In this document: positions 4,936 to 32,309 of the stretch, piece after piece | How positions within the stretch are numbered: position 1 is the stretch's first letter | Layout of the letters: each line of letters begins with the position of its first letter | DNA from: Bacteroidaceae bacterium | GTDB lineage: Bacteria; Bacteroidota; Bacteroidia; Bacteroidales; Bacteroidaceae | Direction of reading: 5' to 3' | NCBI GenBank assembly: GCA_024697285.1 | Contig: JAILFY010000126.1 | Coordinates: forward strand, 1 to 42,591 | DNA: 42,591 nt | The notes under the pieces: model-generated | Told to the model about the DNA's origin: nothing | Seen by the model: only the letters and a program-made list of their open reading frames with translations | The model's database searches: none | Made by a program: the position numbers and the translations under genes

Positions 4936-5223
4936 CTACCCCTCACCTCCTTCCTGCACTGCATCTTTCAGCGAAAGACTAGGTTTGAAGGACAAAGCCA
5001 ACTTGGGAGGTACTAGCATGCGCTGACCATTCGTCGGATTGACCACTATACGTTCGAGTTTCTTCTTCACCTCGAAGGTACCAAAGTTCTGGACCTGCAG
5101 AGACTCGCCCTCCTCGAAACGAGAAGTCATTTCTGCCAAGAGATTATTAACCAATGTCTGAGTGACCTTGGTTGAAGCGCCGGTGCGCTGAGAGAGTACT
5201 GATATAAAATCCTTATGGTTCAT
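4936..5223 (-). CDS. HU family DNA-binding protein
   Basis: 95 aa: KDFISVLSQRTGASTKVTQTLVNNLLAEMTSRFEEGESLQVQNFGTFEVKKKLERIVVNPTNGQRMLVPPKLALSFKPS. Confidence 0.9.
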   Translation of the reverse strand: MNHKDFISVLSQRTGASTKVTQTLVNNLLAEMTSRFEEGESLQVQNFGTFEVKKKLERIVVNPTNGQRMLVPPKLALSFKPSLSLKDAVQEGGEG

Positions 5224-6650
5224 ATGCGAACGGATGGATGAGTGGATTGTTTGTCTGTTGCCGGAGTGGCATAAAGGTCGAAGTCATCTGCAGATGTGAT
5301 ACGGACATCGACAAATGTTCCCGGAGTGGGAATAGCATGTCCAGGAGCGCATTCTGCTGCAAGGGCGAGGGGAATAAGGACCTCGGGGTCTACTTCTGGG
5401 GAATCGTACTGGGTGCGACCAATGAGATAGTCGCCTTCTGTTCGGTCGATGATCACCTTCTGTATGGTGCCGACCTTGGCCTCCTGCACTTCTGCCGAGA
5501 TTCGTTGTTGCAGACGCATAAGTCGCGAGAGACGGGCCTGCTTGGTATCCTCAGGAATATCATCGGAATAAGCAGTGGCACTGTGGGTTCCCTCTTCCTC
5601 CGAATAGGCAAAGGCTCCCATGCGTTCAAAACGAGCCCAGCGGGTGAAATCCAGCAACTGCTGATAGGCTTCTTCAGACTCACCCGGATGACCAACCATA
5701 AGGGTGGTGCGAAGATGTATTCCGGGCAGTTCCTCGCGGATACGACTGACGAAGTCGTAAGTCTGCTGGCTGGTGATATGGCGGCGCATAGCTTCCAGAA
5801 CAGGATCTGCTATATGTTGAAGTGCTATGTCAAGATAGCGACATACATTATCATGACGGGCCATCACGGGCAGCAACTCCCATGGGAAATCCGTGGGATA
5901 GGCGTAGTGAAGGCGAATCCAGCAAACACCGGGTATTTCGGCCATGCGGTCCACGAGTTCCGCTATGGCACGACGGTGGTACAAATCCACACCATAATAG
6001 GTGAGTTCTTGTGCAATGACATTGAACTCCTTGACACCCAAAGCCACCAGTTGTCGGACTTCCAGAAGAATATCTTCCATAGGACGACTCTGGTGGCGAC
6101 CGGTTATCAGGGGGATGGCGCAATAGGAGCACCGGCGGTCACACCCTTCTGATATCTTGATATAGGCGTAGTGGGAAGGTGTGGTGATGATGCGACCTGG
6201 TGTGAGGGTAGCATCCCAGACATGACCGAGATCTGCGAGAAGACGAGGCCAGTCGAATTTGCCGTACCAACCGTCCACTTCGGGAATCTCTTCTTGCAGC
6301 TCCGTCAGGTAGCGTTGGGAGAGACACCCCATGACATACAGCTTGCGAAGCCTGCCCTTTGCACTTCTGGACTTGGAAGAAGTAGACTTTTGATTGCTCC
6401 CAGAAACTTCTGTTTGAGCATGTTCTGGTGACTTGCGCTGCCCTTGCTGAAGAATCATGTTGATACTCTCTTCCTTGGCATCACCAATAAAACCGCAGGT
6501 GTTGATGACGCAGATATCACCCTGACACACTTCTGGGTCATGGGACACAGTGTAGCCCGCGTGGTGCAACTGAGCCATGAGGCGCTCGGAGTCCACAAGG
6601 TTCTTGGAGCAACCCATCGTGAGGATGTCTACGTGATTCCTTCTCATCAT
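5220..6650 (-). CDS. rimO: Ribosomal protein S12 methylthiotransferase
   Basis: TMGCSKNLVDSERLMAQL, INTCGFIGDAKEESI, CDRRCSYCAIPLITGRHQSRP, TTLMVGHPGE; downstream of ftsY as in other Bacteroidetes. Confidence 0.95.
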   Translation of the reverse strand: MMRRNHVDILTMGCSKNLVDSERLMAQLHHAGYTVSHDPEVCQGDICVINTCGFIGDAKEESINMILQQGQRKSPEHAQTEVSGSNQKSTSSKSRSAKGRLRKLYVMGCLSQRYLTELQEEIPEVDGWYGKFDWPRLLADLGHVWDATLTPGRIITTPSHYAYIKISEGCDRRCSYCAIPLITGRHQSRPMEDILLEVRQLVALGVKEFNVIAQELTYYGVDLYHRRAIAELVDRMAEIPGVCWIRLHYAYPTDFPWELLPVMARHDNVCRYLDIALQHIADPVLEAMRRHITSQQTYDFVSRIREELPGIHLRTTLMVGHPGESEEAYQQLLDFTRWARFERMGAFAYSEEEGTHSATAYSDDIPEDTKQARLSRLMRLQQRISAEVQEAKVGTIQKVIIDRTEGDYLIGRTQYDSPEVDPEVLIPLALAAECAPGHAIPTPGTFVDVRITSADDFDLYATPATDKQSTHPSVRI

Positions 6651-7670: not shown

Positions 7671-8060
7671 ATTTTAATCATAGATTAAGACTGATTTAAG
7701 CATCTTAACATTTCAATGCATTTGCGGGGTTGTTATTGACCTTGATTAGTCCCTCACGTTCCTTTTTCTCTCAAGGCCTCTTCTGGCTATAAAAAAATAT
7801 TGCTGTCCGGCAAAACTCAGAATGCTTTATAATCTTTCCCCAGAAGCCTGTAAAACCAGGCTCTGGGGTATTATGTTTGCAAAGTAAGCCCCCTTCATTC
7901 GAACAAGGTCGGTTCTGGAGGCCCCTATTGTGTTTCTCCGGCAAATATTTCATCCCATGTTTTGTCTGGCTCTTCCATGAATCGGAAAAGGTCAACGTAA
8001 TACATGAGCGTAAGGCGAATCATTGTTACCACCTGGAAAAAAGCATCGTTGCATTTTATA

Positions 8061-8302
8061 TGTATATACGTGTTGGCAAAGATGTATATACGTGTTGGCG
8101 AGGATGTATATACGTGCTGGCAAAGATGTATATACGTGCTGGCAAAGATGTATATACGTGTTGGCGAGGATGTATATACGTGTTGGCAAAGATGTACGTA
8201 CGTGTTGGCGAAGATGTACGTACGTGTTGACAAATATGTACGTACGTGTTGGCGAAGATGTACGTACGTGTTGGCAAAGATGTACGTACGTGTTGAAAAA
8301 CG
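8061..8302 (+). repeat. Tandem array A: 11 x 22 bp, consensus TGTAYRTACGTGTTGGCRAAGA
   Basis: Units start at 8061, 8083, 8105, 8127, 8149, 8171 (tgtatatacg type) and 8193, 8215, 8237, 8259, 8281 (tgtacgtacg type); no length variation. Confidence 0.97.
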
Positions 8303-8322
8303 CAATGTAGATTAGATTTCAG

Positions 8323-8456
8323 GATGTATATATCTTCAGCTCAAAAGATATATATCTTCAGCTCAAAAGATATATATCTTCTGTCCATAAGATATAAATC
8401 TTCTGTCCATAAGATATAAATCTTCTGTCCATAAGATATATATCTTATTCGTATAA
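8323..8456. repeat. Tandem array C: about 6 units of 22 bp (first 24 bp) with palindromic core AAGATATATATCTT
   Basis: Units at 8347, 8369, 8391, 8413, 8435, e.g. gatatatatcttcagctcaaaa and gatatatatcttctgtccataa. Confidence 0.95.
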
Positions 8457-8564
8457 GAATCTACCCAGCTCGGTTATCCCCCGTGTATTCATTGTGTTCC
8501 CTGTTTAACTCCACTTTTTCTCATTCAGTCTGCTGTCATCACAAGTGGCAAAAGTACGTGTCCA

Positions 8565-8672
8565 CGAAAAATGTTGTTCAAAACAAACTACATACTACAT
8601 GAATTTTTATTGAGAAGTCCATTTTCCGCCATTTTCATGTAGTATGTAGTTTATTTTGAACAACATTTTCGC
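8565..8672. repeat. About 39-bp inverted repeat with about 30-bp loop; degenerate third copy at 8871-8894
   Basis: Left 8565-8603 cgaaaaatgttgttcaaaacaaactacatactacatgaa; right 8634-8672 ttcatgtagtatgtagtttattttgaacaacattttcgcg, reverse complementary apart from 1 mismatch and a 1-nt indel; 8871-8894 gtatagtatgtagtatattttgaa. Confidence 0.93.
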
Positions 8673-8681
8673 GGGAGGGAG

Positions 8682-22250: not shown

Positions 22251-22277
22251 GAGTGCGCCGCGGTCCGTCCGCGGCGA
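22251..22277. repeat. Third copy of the CCGCGG hairpin element (27 bp, inverted relative to 8.7 kb copies)
   Basis: GAGTGCGCCGCGGTCCGTCCGCGGCGA is the exact reverse complement of 8769-8795. Confidence 0.93.
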
Positions 22278-22297
22278 ACTTCTTTTTCTCCCCCTCT

Positions 22298-24076
22298 ATG
22301 AATCTCACTACTTTCTATACCAGCAAATCAACCTCCCTCCAATCAGAGATCACCTTGCTGCGGCGCCGCACCAGGAGCTATGTCATCATTGAGCTCGCCA
22401 CCTTCGTTCTCGCCGCCGTCCTCCTGCTCATCTTCTGGATAGGCGGCTACGCCCTGCAAGACGGTTGGGGTTTGCTCGCTGCTGCTCTCCTCGCCGTCCT
22501 CGTCTACCTCGCTGTTCGCAGCCGGGACGTCCGCTCTTCCGCCCGCCTCGAGGAGTGCGAGGCGCTGCTTGAGGTCTACGAGGGGGAACTGGCGGCCCTC
22601 GAGGGGGACTTCTCGCATTTCGACGACGGCCGGTGTTATGTCGATGCACATCACCCCTACTCCACCGACCTCGACCTCTTCGGGCCAGAATCCCTTTTCC
22701 ATCGCATGAACCGCACCGTCACCACCGGCGGCAGCGACCACCTGGCGGCCCGCCTCGCAGAGACCAGCGTGCCAGCCGTGGAAGAGATAACGAAACGCAA
22801 AGAAGACATCCGCGAACTCGCCGCACAGGAAGAACTGCGCACCTCCTTCATCGCCCAGCGCAAACAGGGCAGCGTGGATACTGGCGCCGTGCTGCAGTCG
22901 CTGCAACAGGTAGAGGACATCACCATTCCTGCCGTCGCAGCCTCTGCATGGACCTTGGCAATAGCTATCCTCCTGCTCCTCGTCTTCTACAGCCTGCTGC
23001 TTGCCACCTTGCTCGGGCTGGTCAGTGCGGGACTATTGCTCTCGTGGGCGCTGCTGGAAGTGCTCTTTGCTGCCCTGTGCTGTTCCAAAGCGCTACAGCA
23101 GACGAAACACGCCACCGAAGGCATCCACAAATCGCTGAAGACCTACCACCAACTCATGCGACTTACACCCGGATTGCAGGAGGTGTCACCCGCCCTGCAT
23201 TCCCTCGGACAAATCATCGCCAGCATCGATCGTCGCAACGAGTTCTGGGTACTCTTCTCCAACGCCCTCTTTCTCTCCGACCTCTTCATAGTGCGCCGTT
23301 TCCTGCAGTGGCGACGCCGTTATCTGACGCAGATACCTCGGTGGATAGAAGCCGTAAGTCGCTTCGACGCGCTGGTTTCCTTGGCCACCTTCTGCTACAA
23401 CCACCCCGAGGCCACCGAGGCCGAGATGGCGACGGGCGAGGACATTGTCTTCGAGGCGCGTCAACTTTGGCACCCCTTCCTCGGAGCCCGGGCAGTGCGC
23501 AACGATTTCAGCCTCACCGACAGCCACTACTACCTCATCACGGGAGCCAACATGGCAGGCAAGAGCACCTTCCTCCGTGCCGTGGGTATCAACTGCCTCC
23601 TTGCCCGCTGTGGCCTGCCCGTATTCGCAGAGCACCTCCGTCTCTCTGCCTTCGCTCTCTTCACCTCTATGCGCACTACCGACGACCTGCAGCACGGAAT
23701 TTCTTATTTCAATGCGGAACTACTACGTCTGGAACAACTCCTGACGGCAGTCCACGAGACGTCAGCACGCACCCTCATTATCCTCGATGAGATCCTGCGC
23801 GGCACCAATTCGCTCGATAAGCTGAACGGTTCTCGCCTCTTCCTCGAGACCATTGCCTCGCAGCCCGTAACCGGCATTATTGCCACCCATGATCTCGAAC
23901 TCTCCCGAATGGCGTCAGAACATCCCAAACGATTCCACAACTACTGCTTCGAAATCCAACTCTCAGACTCCGTCACTTACTCCTATCACATCACCCCTGG
24001 TGTAGCTCGCAACCAGAACGCCACCTACCTGCTCCAGAAAGTACTGGAAAGCATCTATTCCTCCAAAAACGACTGA
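22298..24076 (+). CDS. MutS-family (domain V ATPase) DNA mismatch repair-like membrane protein
   Basis: Start MNLTTFYTSK; TGANMAGKSTFLRAVGINCLLARCGLPVFAE; LIILDEILRGTNSLDKL; N-terminal TM segments. Confidence 0.9.
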   Translation: MNLTTFYTSKSTSLQSEITLLRRRTRSYVIIELATFVLAAVLLLIFWIGGYALQDGWGLLAAALLAVLVYLAVRSRDVRSSARLEECEALLEVYEGELAALEGDFSHFDDGRCYVDAHHPYSTDLDLFGPESLFHRMNRTVTTGGSDHLAARLAETSVPAVEEITKRKEDIRELAAQEELRTSFIAQRKQGSVDTGAVLQSLQQVEDITIPAVAASAWTLAIAILLLLVFYSLLLATLLGLVSAGLLLSWALLEVLFAALCCSKALQQTKHATEGIHKSLKTYHQLMRLTPGLQEVSPALHSLGQIIASIDRRNEFWVLFSNALFLSDLFIVRRFLQWRRRYLTQIPRWIEAVSRFDALVSLATFCYNHPEATEAEMATGEDIVFEARQLWHPFLGARAVRNDFSLTDSHYYLITGANMAGKSTFLRAVGINCLLARCGLPVFAEHLRLSAFALFTSMRTTDDLQHGISYFNAELLRLEQLLTAVHETSARTLIILDEILRGTNSLDKLNGSRLFLETIASQPVTGIIATHDLELSRMASEHPKRFHNYCFEIQLSDSVTYSYHITPGVARNQNATYLLQKVLESIYSSKND

Positions 24077-24126: not shown

Positions 24127-24500
24127 ACGTACAGACCTGTCCGCAAAGACGAAGCTTCGTGAGAACAAAGACGAAGCTTCGTGTGAAGCAACACGAAGGT
24201 ACGTGTGGAAGAATACGTATATACATCTTGAAGGATACGTATATACATCTTGAAGGATACGTATATACATCTTGAAGAACACGTATATACATCTTGAAGG
24301 ATACGTATATACATCTTGAAGAGGACGTATATACATCTTGAAGAGGACGTATATACATCTTGAAGAGGACGTATGTACATCTTGAAGAGGACGTATGTAC
24401 ATCTTGAAGAGAACGTATGTACATCTTGAAGAGAACGTATGTACATCTTGAAGAGAACGTATGTACGTTTTGAGGAAGATGAATATACGTCTTGGTGAAT
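24127..24500 (-). repeat. Tandem array B: about 17 x 22 bp; 12 well-conserved units (24215-24478) plus divergent leading and trailing units
   Basis: acgtatatacatcttgaagRRN units every 22 bp from 24215; in-phase upstream units acgaagcttcgtgagaacaaag (24149), acgaagcttcgtgtgaagcaac (24171), acgaaggtacgtgtggaagaat (24193), weaker 24127. Confidence 0.95.
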
Positions 24501-24534: not shown

Positions 24535-24752
24535 ATTGACAGCCCCCCCTCTTTCTTTCAAGTCAGATGAACAAGACCATTGACAGCCCACCCTCTTTCT
24601 TTCACATCAGATTAACAAGACCATTGACAGCCCCCTCCTTCTTTCACCTCAGATTAACAAGATGATTGACAGCCCACCCTCTTTCTTTCACCTCAGATTA
24701 ATAAGATGATTGACTTGTCCACCCCTTTTGCAGTCACATCAGATTAAGAAGA
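24535..24752. repeat. 44-bp tandem repeat, 5 units (one 42 bp)
   Basis: attgacagcccaccctctttctttcacatcagattaacaagacc; units at 24535, 24579, 24623, 24665, 24709 (last degenerate). Confidence 0.93.
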
Positions 24753-24806
24753 ACATGCAAAATGCGTGTCTGGGTCAGGCTGGAGAAGATATTTACGCCA
24801 AAAATC

Positions 24807-24837
24807 TTGGCGATTCATGGTTGTTATCGTATCTTTG
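24807..24837 (+). promoter_or_regulatory. Promoter for pyrK-pyrD (TTGG-N19-TATCTTTG)
   Basis: ttggcgattcatggttgttatcgtatctttgcag, about 35 bp before the pyrK ATG. Confidence 0.75.
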
Positions 24838-24872: not shown

Positions 24873-25715
24873 ATGAGAAAATATCAATTAGATCTCACTC
24901 TGAAACATCTGTCGAAGCCACGTCCAGGATATGTGCTGCTTCAACTGACCGACCCCTCTGCTCCCTTGCCCGAGATGCTTCCGGGACAGTTTGTGGAGGT
25001 GCGCGTGGACTCTTCTGCTTCCACGTTCCTGCGCCGCCCCATCAGCATCAATCTGGTGGATCGTCAGGAAAATGAGTTGTGGCTGCTGGTGCACGTAGTG
25101 GGACCTGGCACACAGGCTATGGCCGAACTGAACACTGGCGACCGACTGAACGTCGTAGTACCGCTGGGCAATGGTTTCACCCTGCCCCAACGACCTGCGT
25201 CGGAAGGAGAGCCCTGCGCCGAAGGTTCGTCGGAATCAGCCGTGGCTCCGCGCTATCTTCTCGTAGGCGGAGGAGTGGGAACGGCTCCCCTGCTTTATAT
25301 GGGTCAGGAATTGGTGCGCAGGGGTTGCAAGCCTACCTTCCTGCTGGGAGGTCGCACTTCCTCTGACTTGCTCCAGCTGGACTTATTCGGCAAGTTCGGC
25401 GAGGTCTTTGTGACCACGGAGGATGGCAGTGCCGGCGAGCGAGGGTTCGTGACCCAACACTCGTTGTGGCAAACAGCCACTGCCGAAGGGGGCGCACGCG
25501 TCTATGACCGCATCTGCACCTGTGGCCCCAAGCCCATGATGATGGCAGTGGCACGGCTGGCAGGCGAGAAGGGCATCCCCTGCGAGGCTTCCCTCGAGAA
25601 TATGATGGCATGCGGCCTGGGAGCTTGCCTGTGCTGCGTAGAGGACACCAGGGATGGACATGTGTGTGTCTGCACAGAAGGCCCCGTTTTTCCCACCGAT
25701 AAACTGAAATGGTAA
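24873..25715 (+). CDS. pyrK: Dihydroorotate dehydrogenase B electron transfer subunit
   Basis: [65 protein letters not shown]. Confidence 0.95.
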
Positions 25716-26629
25716 TGGCAGATCTTACTACTCATATTGGTTCTCTCGAACTGAAGAACCCCGTGATGACCGCTTCCGGGACATTCGGCTACGGTCTGGA
25801 ATTCGCTGATCTGGTGGAACTGGACCAGATAGGAGGCATAATCGTGAAGGGAACCACCCTGGAGCCACGTCAGGGTAATCCCTATCCCCGCATGGCAGAG
25901 ACGGCCCAAGGAATGCTCAACTGCGTAGGATTGCAGAACAAAGGCGTAGATTACTTCTGCGAACACATCTATCCGGAGGTGCGCAAAATCCATACGGCGG
26001 TGCTCGTCAACGTCAGTGGCAACAGCCCCGAGACCTATGCTGCATGTGCCGCCCGCATAGCAGAACTCGAAGATATACCTGCCATAGAGCTGAACATCTC
26101 CTGTCCGAACGTGCGGCAAGGGGGAATGGCTTTCGGCGTCACCTGCGAGGGCGCTGCTTCTGTTGTCAAGGCCGTTCGTGCAGCCTATCCCAAGACGCTC
26201 ATTGTCAAGCTCTCGCCCAACGTGACATCCATAGCCGACATAGCGCGTGCCGTGGAAGCAGAAGGTGCCGATGCGGTATCGCTCATCAACACCCTTATGG
26301 GCATGGCCATAGATGCCGAGAAGCGTCGTCCTATTCTCAGTATAGGCACTGGAGGCTTGTCCGGTCCTGCCGTGAAACCCGTGGCACTCCGTATGGTGTG
26401 GCAGGTCTTCGATGCCGTGAAGATTCCCATCGTGGGACTAGGCGGAATCATGAATGCCACAGATGCGGTGGAGTTCCTGTTGGCCGGAGCCTCGGCCATA
26501 GAGATAGGCACGGCCAATTTCATCGACCCGGCCGTGACCGTGAAGGTGGTTCGTGGCATAGAGGAATACCTCGACCGCCATGGATTCCGCTCCGCCAGCG
26601 AGCTCATAGGTCTGGCACATCAGTCCTGA
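25709..26629 (+). CDS. pyrD: Dihydroorotate dehydrogenase B catalytic subunit (start may be 25715)
   Basis: [60 protein letters not shown]; overlaps pyrK stop. Confidence 0.95.
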
Positions 26630-31128: not shown

Positions 31129-32240
31129 AAGCACTATTCATAGATCGCGACGGCACCATCCTTCGCGAGCCCGCCGACGAGCAGATAGATTCTCTCGATA
31201 AATTTCACTTCGTACCCGGAGCCATCAGCGCCCTGCGTTTCCTGCGCCAGCACACCGACTATCGTTTCGTCATGGTGTCTAACCAGGACGGGCTGGGCAC
31301 CGAGGCCTATCCGGAGAAAGATTTCTGGCCCTCGCAGAACCTGATGCTGGAGATTCTGGAAGGCGAGGGAATCGTTTTCGACGAAATCCTCATCGACCGC
31401 AGTTTCCCGGAAGAACACCTGCCTACACGCAAGCCCGGCACGGCCATGCTCACCCACTACATGGATGGCAGTTGCGATATGTCTGCCAGTTTCGTCATCG
31501 GCGATCGCAACACAGACGCCCTGTTGGCAGCAAACTTAGGTTGTCGCGCTCTGATTCTTCCTTCGGAACTGTCTGTTTCGGACGAACAGAGCCGAGCAAT
31601 CTCCGAAAACGTCACGTACGTGCCTTCGTGGGAGAAGGTCGTGGAACTGGCCTACGCAGGACAGCGTCGCGCCACTGTCACCCGCACGACGAAGGAGACT
31701 GACATCGCCATAAGCCTGGACCTCGATGGAACCGGACAGAGCCACATAGCCACGGGGCTGGGATTCTTTGACCATATGTTGGAACAGATAGCCAAGCACG
31801 GCAGCATCGATCTCGACATCCAGGTGCACGGGGACCTCCACGTGGATGAGCACCATACTATAGAAGATACGGCCCTCGCCTTGGGCGAAGCCCTGCGCAA
31901 GGCACTGGGAGACAAACGGGGCATCGAGCGCTATGGCTACACCCTGCCTATGGACGATTGCCTTTGTACTGTCGCCCTGGACTTTGGCGGGCGTCCCTGG
32001 CTTGTCTGGGATGCATCGTTTCAGCGCGAACGCATCGGCGAAATGCCCTCCGAGATGTTCCTGCATTTCTTCAAGAGTCTATCTGATGCCGCTATGATGA
32101 ATCTGAACATTCAAGCTCAAGGCACCAATGAACACCATAAGATTGAAGGTATCTTCAAGGCGCTGGCACGAGCCTTGCGCATGGCTGTTCGCAGAGATGT
32201 GACCCACATGCAGTTGCCATCGAGCAAGGGGGTGCTGTAA
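31125..32240 (+). CDS. hisB: Bifunctional histidinol-phosphatase / imidazoleglycerol-phosphate dehydratase
   Basis: HAD motif [12 protein letters not shown] motifs [54 protein letters not shown]-term LPSSKGVL. Confidence 0.96.
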
Positions 32241-32309
32241 TCCACATGCGAGTGCCATCGAGCAAGGGGGTGCTGTAATCCACATGCGAGTGCCATCGAG
32301 CAAGGGGGG
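32204..32309 (+). repeat. 38-bp tandem repeat, about 2.8 copies, beginning in the hisB 3' end
   Basis: ccacatgcagttgccatcgagcaagggggtgctgtaat at 32204; ccacatgcgagtgccatcgagcaagggggtgctgtaat at 32242; partial at 32280. Confidence 0.95.

Follow-up and report, generated by a model that had tools for sequence, protein, structure and literature searches.

Results

A 22-bp palindromic array lies between a MutS-family gene and pyrK

We analyzed a stretch of 42,591 nucleotides (the window), which is contig 49 of a rumen-type Bacteroidaceae MAG of 2.40 Mb and 73% completeness. The closest relatives of its pyrK were found in rumen Bacteroidales/Prevotellaceae MAGs. Array B, the subject of this study, is placed between a MutS-family gene and the pyrK-pyrD pair. 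These genes, the surrounding repeats, and a related array elsewhere in the window (array A) are listed below.

8060 to 8304, no strand: array A, a 22-bp array with core ATGTATATACGT and then ATGTACGTACGT, linker GTTGGCRAAG (TRF)
8316 to 8458, no strand: the other 22-bp family in the composite element, in which AAGATATATATCTT is joined to an 8-bp linker (CTGTCCAT / CAGCTCAA)
22253 to 24076, plus strand: MutS-family gene carrying MutS domains III and V; array B lies downstream
24149 to 24214, no strand: array B, units 1-3, two copies of ACGAAGCTTCGT and the hybrid ACGAAGGTACGT, sharing the phase of the remaining units (TRF and register reading)
24215 to 24368, no strand: array B, middle, seven units with core ACGTATATACAT and linker CTTGAAGNNN (TRF and register reading)
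24369 to 24500, no strand: array B, end, four copies of ACGTATGTACAT, then ACGTATGTACGT and the decayed final unit ATGAATATACGT (register reading)
24535 to 24756, no strand: array of period 44 (2 x 22) that follows array B directly, five copies, unit beginning ATTGACAGCCCACCC (TRF)
24830 to 24837, plus strand: promoter-like -7 motif TATCTTTG (TAnnTTTG) of pyrK-pyrD, some 330 bp beyond array B
24873 to 25715, plus strand: pyrK-type gene (dihydroorotate dehydrogenase B Fe-S subunit), then pyrD at 25709-26629

We take TATCTTTG at 24830 to be a promoter-like -7 motif from the TAnnTTTG form of Bacteroides promoters.

TRF placed period-22 repeats at 24144-24205 and 24208-24494. Stepping through the sequence 22 bases at a time from 24149 resolved array B (24149-24500) into 16 back-to-back 22-mers in exact register, which moves its start to about 24149 from the 24127 given in a first-pass annotation. 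The same annotation had proposed that the array grades in phase into a different palindrome, and the 16 in-phase units agree with this: the core dyad stays in phase throughout while the core shifts from GAAGCTTC through a half-and-half hybrid to GTATATAC and then GTATGTAC. The hybrid unit joins the left half of one core to the right half of another. A palindromic core with a fixed-length linker is the best description of the repeat unit. Elsewhere in the window, a 38-bp unit was tandemly repeated (2.8 copies, 97% identity) at 32204-32308.

Array A shares a half-unit with array B and belongs to a composite repeat

The cores of arrays A and B had been described as reverse complements with different linkers, and the core switch in B as a mirror of that in A. 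The array A core, ATGTATATACGT, confirmed the first point. Both arrays do switch cores, but array A changes both halves symmetrically and array B (GTATGTAC) only one side, so the mirroring claim is only partly right. The linkers do differ, but part of the difference amounts to a re-pairing of 11-bp half-units. Array A combines half-unit ATACGTGTTGG with an inverted ATACATCTTYG and array B combines ATACATCTTGA with an inverted ATACGTCCTCT, so that most of one half-unit is common to both arrays; the common half, ATACATCTT, has different partners.

Array A sits in a composite repeat that was present at six loci (the window, L017, L021, L028, L070, and L073) and has conserved flanks, whereas array B stands without them. 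The composite (7985-8680 in the window) consists of a GTATATAC array, a joint of about 35 bp, a AAGATATATATCTT array, and a conserved flank containing ATTCGTATAAGATTCTACCCAG and then ACTACATACTACATGAA, and it ends in a long inverted repeat, AAAATGTTGTTCAAAACAAACTACATACTACATGAA ... TTCATGTAGTATGTAGTTTATTTTGAACAACATTTT, at 8575-8680. Order and orientation were identical at all six loci.

Arrays with a 22-bp period are dispersed through the genome

The pattern GTAYRTAC-N14-GTAYRTAC matched 263 times genome-wide, compared with a single match for the reversed control pattern; the 22-bp spacing of cores is far beyond chance. In a motif-free lag scan of 416 kb of the same genome, lag 22 gave 2321 matching positions, whereas lags 21 and 23 gave 192 and 12, and lag 22 was also dominant in G035, G052, and G042. 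A 558-kb sample of the 2.4 Mb contained 44 period-22 arrays of at least 60 bp, or about 8 per 100 kb, from which we extrapolate about 190 such non-coding arrays per genome; arrays with periods of 18, 20, 21, 23, and 24 numbered 8, 1, 7, 1, and 2 in the same sample. Thirty of the 44 lay near contig ends or the edges of fetched stretches. Among 101 genomes from the genus, 17 matched the GTATATAC pair pattern, and 22-bp arrays with other palindromes occur in other genomes of the genus. The reversed control pattern, itself a palindrome, matched 111 times in G035 and 62 times in G052.

A dispersed element family, one of two explanations offered by the first-pass annotation, is thus borne out by the pair matches and by the composite at six loci. 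It had also been argued that the shared core would be coincidental if other 22-bp-periodic loci lacked core conservation, and the genome-wide check did not find this to be so.

Cores and spacing are conserved and linkers are free

We scored the self-complementarity of consensus units against shuffles for tandem arrays with periods from 14 to 36. Period-22 units were self-complementary (n = 105, mean 0.629 versus 0.509 shuffled), with 37% above the 95% null; the signal was weak at period 21, and the remaining periods were at or near the null. Within the source genome, mirrored core positions ±1, ±3, and ±4 covaried (for example, 94 of 115 Watson-Crick pairs versus 51 when shuffled).

In related species the cores were conserved beside free linkers. 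G097 carried core AAGACGTACATCTT followed by eight free bases, with an identity of 0.94 in the core versus 0.43 in the linker; G002 had an invariant 14-bp core, CCCACGTTCGTGGG, with a variable 8-bp linker, and G052 an invariant 18-bp core, AAATCCTCGTGTGGATTT, with a variable 4-bp linker. In G160 and G177, core GACTGTACAGTC was joined to a ten-base linker, and the elements examined had a fixed anatomy of three full cores between two bounding half cores. Core and linker always summed to 22 across these genomes (12+10, 14+8, and 18+4 bp), with 0 control matches for each. The retention of cores beside diverging linkers in G097, G002, and G052 bears out the other proposed explanation, selection on core and spacing. 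Invariant cores with linkers that drift at constant length suggest sequence-specific recognition and helical phasing and argue against pure slippage; on these patterns of conservation, the arrays point to a dimer recognizing sequence on one face of the DNA and not to neutral slippage.

In G042 a few half words recur, variously combined and nearly always pairing one GT-class with one GC-class half, and the two halves of any one linker there were less alike than halves of other linkers (2.40 versus 3.51 of 7). The class pairing indicates that the units are polar and that linkers are not selected to be palindromic.

At two G160 loci (L305 and L307), 22-bp GACTGTACAGTC arrays lay between Bacteroides sRNA genes, with BTnc049 and a near-threshold GibS match flanking one and two copies of FopS the other; FopS, GibS, and BTnc049 were not consistent neighbors of the arrays.

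HU-HIG genes are often preceded by 22-bp arrays

On a viral contig we found three copies of AAAGTATATACTTT at 22-bp spacing, and the gene directly downstream matched HU-HIG (PF18291) weakly, scoring below the curated cut-off. It was this array that led us to examine HU-HIG genes, a family related in the PDB to IHF and HU. When we searched for viral relatives of HU-HIG, the starting contig alone was returned. We compared lags of 16-30 in the 300 bp upstream of true gene starts, requiring a match of at least 15/22, and used control genes with equally free upstream DNA. Lag 22 was best for 22 of 46 HU-HIG genes, among which paralogues are not fully independent, versus 8 of 139 control genes (p = 7e-10). 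Same-genus control genes gave 7 of 72 (p = 5e-6 versus the HU-HIG genes). Cruder tests, measured from the HMM hit and with seven loci mis-oriented, gave p values of 0.058, 0.006, and 0.14.

A follow-up drew on records from Bacteroides finegoldii, Bacteroides sp., Phocaeicola massiliensis, and Parabacteroides distasonis. By the criterion used above, lag 22 was best upstream of all 12 HU-wHTH genes (12/12), of which 3 are homologous to discovery-set genes and so not fully independent, the control rate being that of the discovery-test genes. The arrays mostly had three to four palindromic units, each gene with its own palindrome. The unit before an HU-HIG gene recurred elsewhere in the same genome in five of five species tested. 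The Bacteroides HU-wHTH genes adjoin VapE, BT4734/BF3469, DUF4373, and N-acetylmuramoyl-L-alanine amidase genes (L350-L360), a recurring neighborhood.

For the core of array B itself, the non-coding DNA upstream of an HU-HIG gene on contig 82 of the source genome contained an array of four GTATATAC copies, some 730 bp before the start codon. No GTATATAC array was found within 600 bp upstream of the other HU-HIG genes with readable upstream DNA in this 73%-complete genome, nor of the HU-HIG genes read in G042, G094, G003, and G040, and HU-HIG copy number did not track the GTATATAC array count. The search for a co-occurring DNA-binding protein that the first-pass annotation had recommended therefore yielded a family associated with 22-bp arrays, but the association is not yet firm for the GTATATAC core.

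Three further observations were made around such genes and sites. The window has a weak HU-HIG-family match on the minus strand at 4957-5235 (17.6 bits, below cut-off). Telomere-like CCCTAA/AACCTT and hairpin repeats (TTTAAACCGCGCCAAAGGCGCACC) lie upstream of an HU-HIG gene at L243:1020-1480. On viral contig 3300042453_003974 (L232:2739-2990), GTATATAC sites at 19-22 bp spacing precede a small unassigned gene in an iteron- or centromere-like layout.

Discussion

Array B belongs to a class of palindrome arrays phased at 22 bp. Its period of exactly 22, its dyad core with a variable linker, and the genome-wide dispersal of its unit are those of the arrays associated with HU-HIG, a clade of the HU/IHF superfamily. 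To our knowledge, HU/IHF sites do not take the form of phased palindrome arrays, and HU proteins are usually weakly sequence-specific DNA packers, which counts against reading the array as a set of specific sites. We nevertheless lean toward array B being a multi-site docking strip for an HU-HIG-type protein, a candidate ligand suggested by the arrays before HU-HIG genes; both the identity of this ligand and a regulatory or nucleoid role for the arrays are what we infer. Each 22-bp step would offer one dyad-symmetric site, and since steps are two helical turns apart, successive protein dimers would sit side by side on one DNA face. The ligand would be an HU-HIG member (an HU domain with, in some members, a C-terminal winged helix), with each paralogue having its own palindrome, and would bind both the array before its own gene, as autoregulation, and the dispersed intergenic arrays. 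Bound protein may bend or coat the DNA, organizing the nucleoid locally or influencing neighboring promoters such as that of pyrK. Identical units stand in blocks in both A and B, which fits growth of the arrays by unit duplication; array A would travel in the composite repeat as well. Further points weigh against a docking strip: the core changes within one array, from GAAGCTTC to GTATATAC, which one strict recognizer would not tolerate, and the GTATATAC array on contig 82 is about 730 bp away from its gene, with the other HU-HIG genes of this genome that have readable upstream DNA lacking one within 600 bp.

That the arrays are a neutral or selfish minisatellite, in which slippage multiplies 22-bp units, MITE-like composites carry them, and the palindromes are by-products, strikes us as unlikely, though it accounts for several features. 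Units are homogenized within A and B; six loci share the combination of array A, the second array, and a long right flank; and the position of 30 of 44 arrays near contig ends or fetched edges is typical of repeats. There is also a precedent in BrickBuilt of Porphyromonas gingivalis, a minisatellite with a 23-nt unit, AGAYCATARTATCCTCTCRTRTG, which is reported to lie within a MITE that has a leader, a tail, and IS-like terminal inverted repeats, to be specific to P. gingivalis, and to have promoter activity (PMC4596501). Like the present arrays, BrickBuilt is an intergenic, multi-copy tandem repeat of the Bacteroidales without spacers; unlike it, the arrays here have a TRF period of 22 bp with an unrelated unit, and are palindromic, with many unrelated cores and conserved spacing. 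Slippage does not readily explain cores kept beside diverging linkers, a period of 22 held constant over unrelated sequences and palindrome lengths, the fixed copy number and half-site boundaries in G160/G177, or the association with a single gene family. An RNA-level function, in which transcribed arrays fold into tandem hairpins that serve as terminators, perhaps bidirectional, or stabilize transcripts, is less probable still. Of about 36 arrays in other species, 16 lay between convergent genes, versus 50 of 276 background gaps, but promoter avoidance can equally explain this enrichment; array RNAs folded better than shuffles (z from -4 to -9), as would any palindromic repeat. RNA-level symmetry, which tolerates G-U and not A-C, was not seen in the HU-upstream arrays (array B not among them), where the gene-sense strand had 41 G.T and 33 A.C mismatches (p = 0.42); the near equality gives no sign of RNA pairing and fits symmetry kept in DNA, not in RNA. 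Of the two strands of array A, the one that folds best runs antisense to both neighboring genes, many cores are AT-rich palindromes of 8-12 bp without a loop, and the unlike linker halves of G042 also speak against hairpins. An Rfam search of the window returned tRNAs only, leaving its arrays without an Rfam family. We dismissed sub-threshold microRNA matches on the arrays as hairpin noise, and a hairpin-unit model was likewise rejected: half types agreed in 92 of 112 cases within the core and 73 of 98 across the linker, similar values that indicate no hairpin preference.

Iterons or centromere-like sites of a plasmid or phage (bound by a Rep_3 initiator or a partition protein), captured in the chromosome or titrating from it, share the tandem 22-bp steps. 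Array B had only one DNA match, a weak one (E = 0.09), to a block of 22-bp iterons that precedes repM on Psychrobacter plasmid pP43BP1, and viral contigs carry GTATATAC arrays spaced at 21-22 bp. That match, the single hit of blastn against plasmids, is not significant, and phage records gave none. Rep_3 iterons bind protein and lie beside the gene of the protein that binds them; the arrays, in contrast, are chromosomal, with hundreds of sites at tens to hundreds of loci and no replication initiator gene nearby, and array B has MutS-family and pyrK genes as neighbors. We consider this origin very unlikely. The arrays also resemble REP/BIME elements in being dispersed intergenic palindromes, sometimes clustered, but their fixed 22-bp phase and core palindromes without a hairpin loop set them apart. 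Movement by a REP-associated tyrosine transposase (RAYT) seems hardly credible and is largely refuted by the absence of a Y1_Tnp (PF01797) match from several array-carrying genomes, namely G040, G052, G160, and the 73%-complete G000. A CRISPR array was rejected as well, as it needs unique spacers of 25-40 bp, and the linkers here are 4-10 bp and repeated within arrays.

Extending the docking-strip reading to the order, we tentatively suggest that Bacteroidales HU-like proteins each have their own "address" palindrome, repeated every two helical turns before their own gene and at 5 to 100 or more intergenic loci, and that paralogues and addresses co-diverge. They may thereby form a sequence-specific, multi-channel system that organizes or silences the nucleoid, with array B as a station of the GTATATAC channel; we hold this broader proposal to be possible rather than probable. 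Descriptions of such arrays or of HU-HIG sites were not found in the open-licence literature searched. If HU-HIG paralogues do read phased arrays, this would provide predicted sites for a large uncharacterized family of gut and rumen Bacteroidales, and the targets of each paralogue would be mappable from sequence alone. It would also give a function to intergenic repeats that appear to fragment metagenome assemblies as well.
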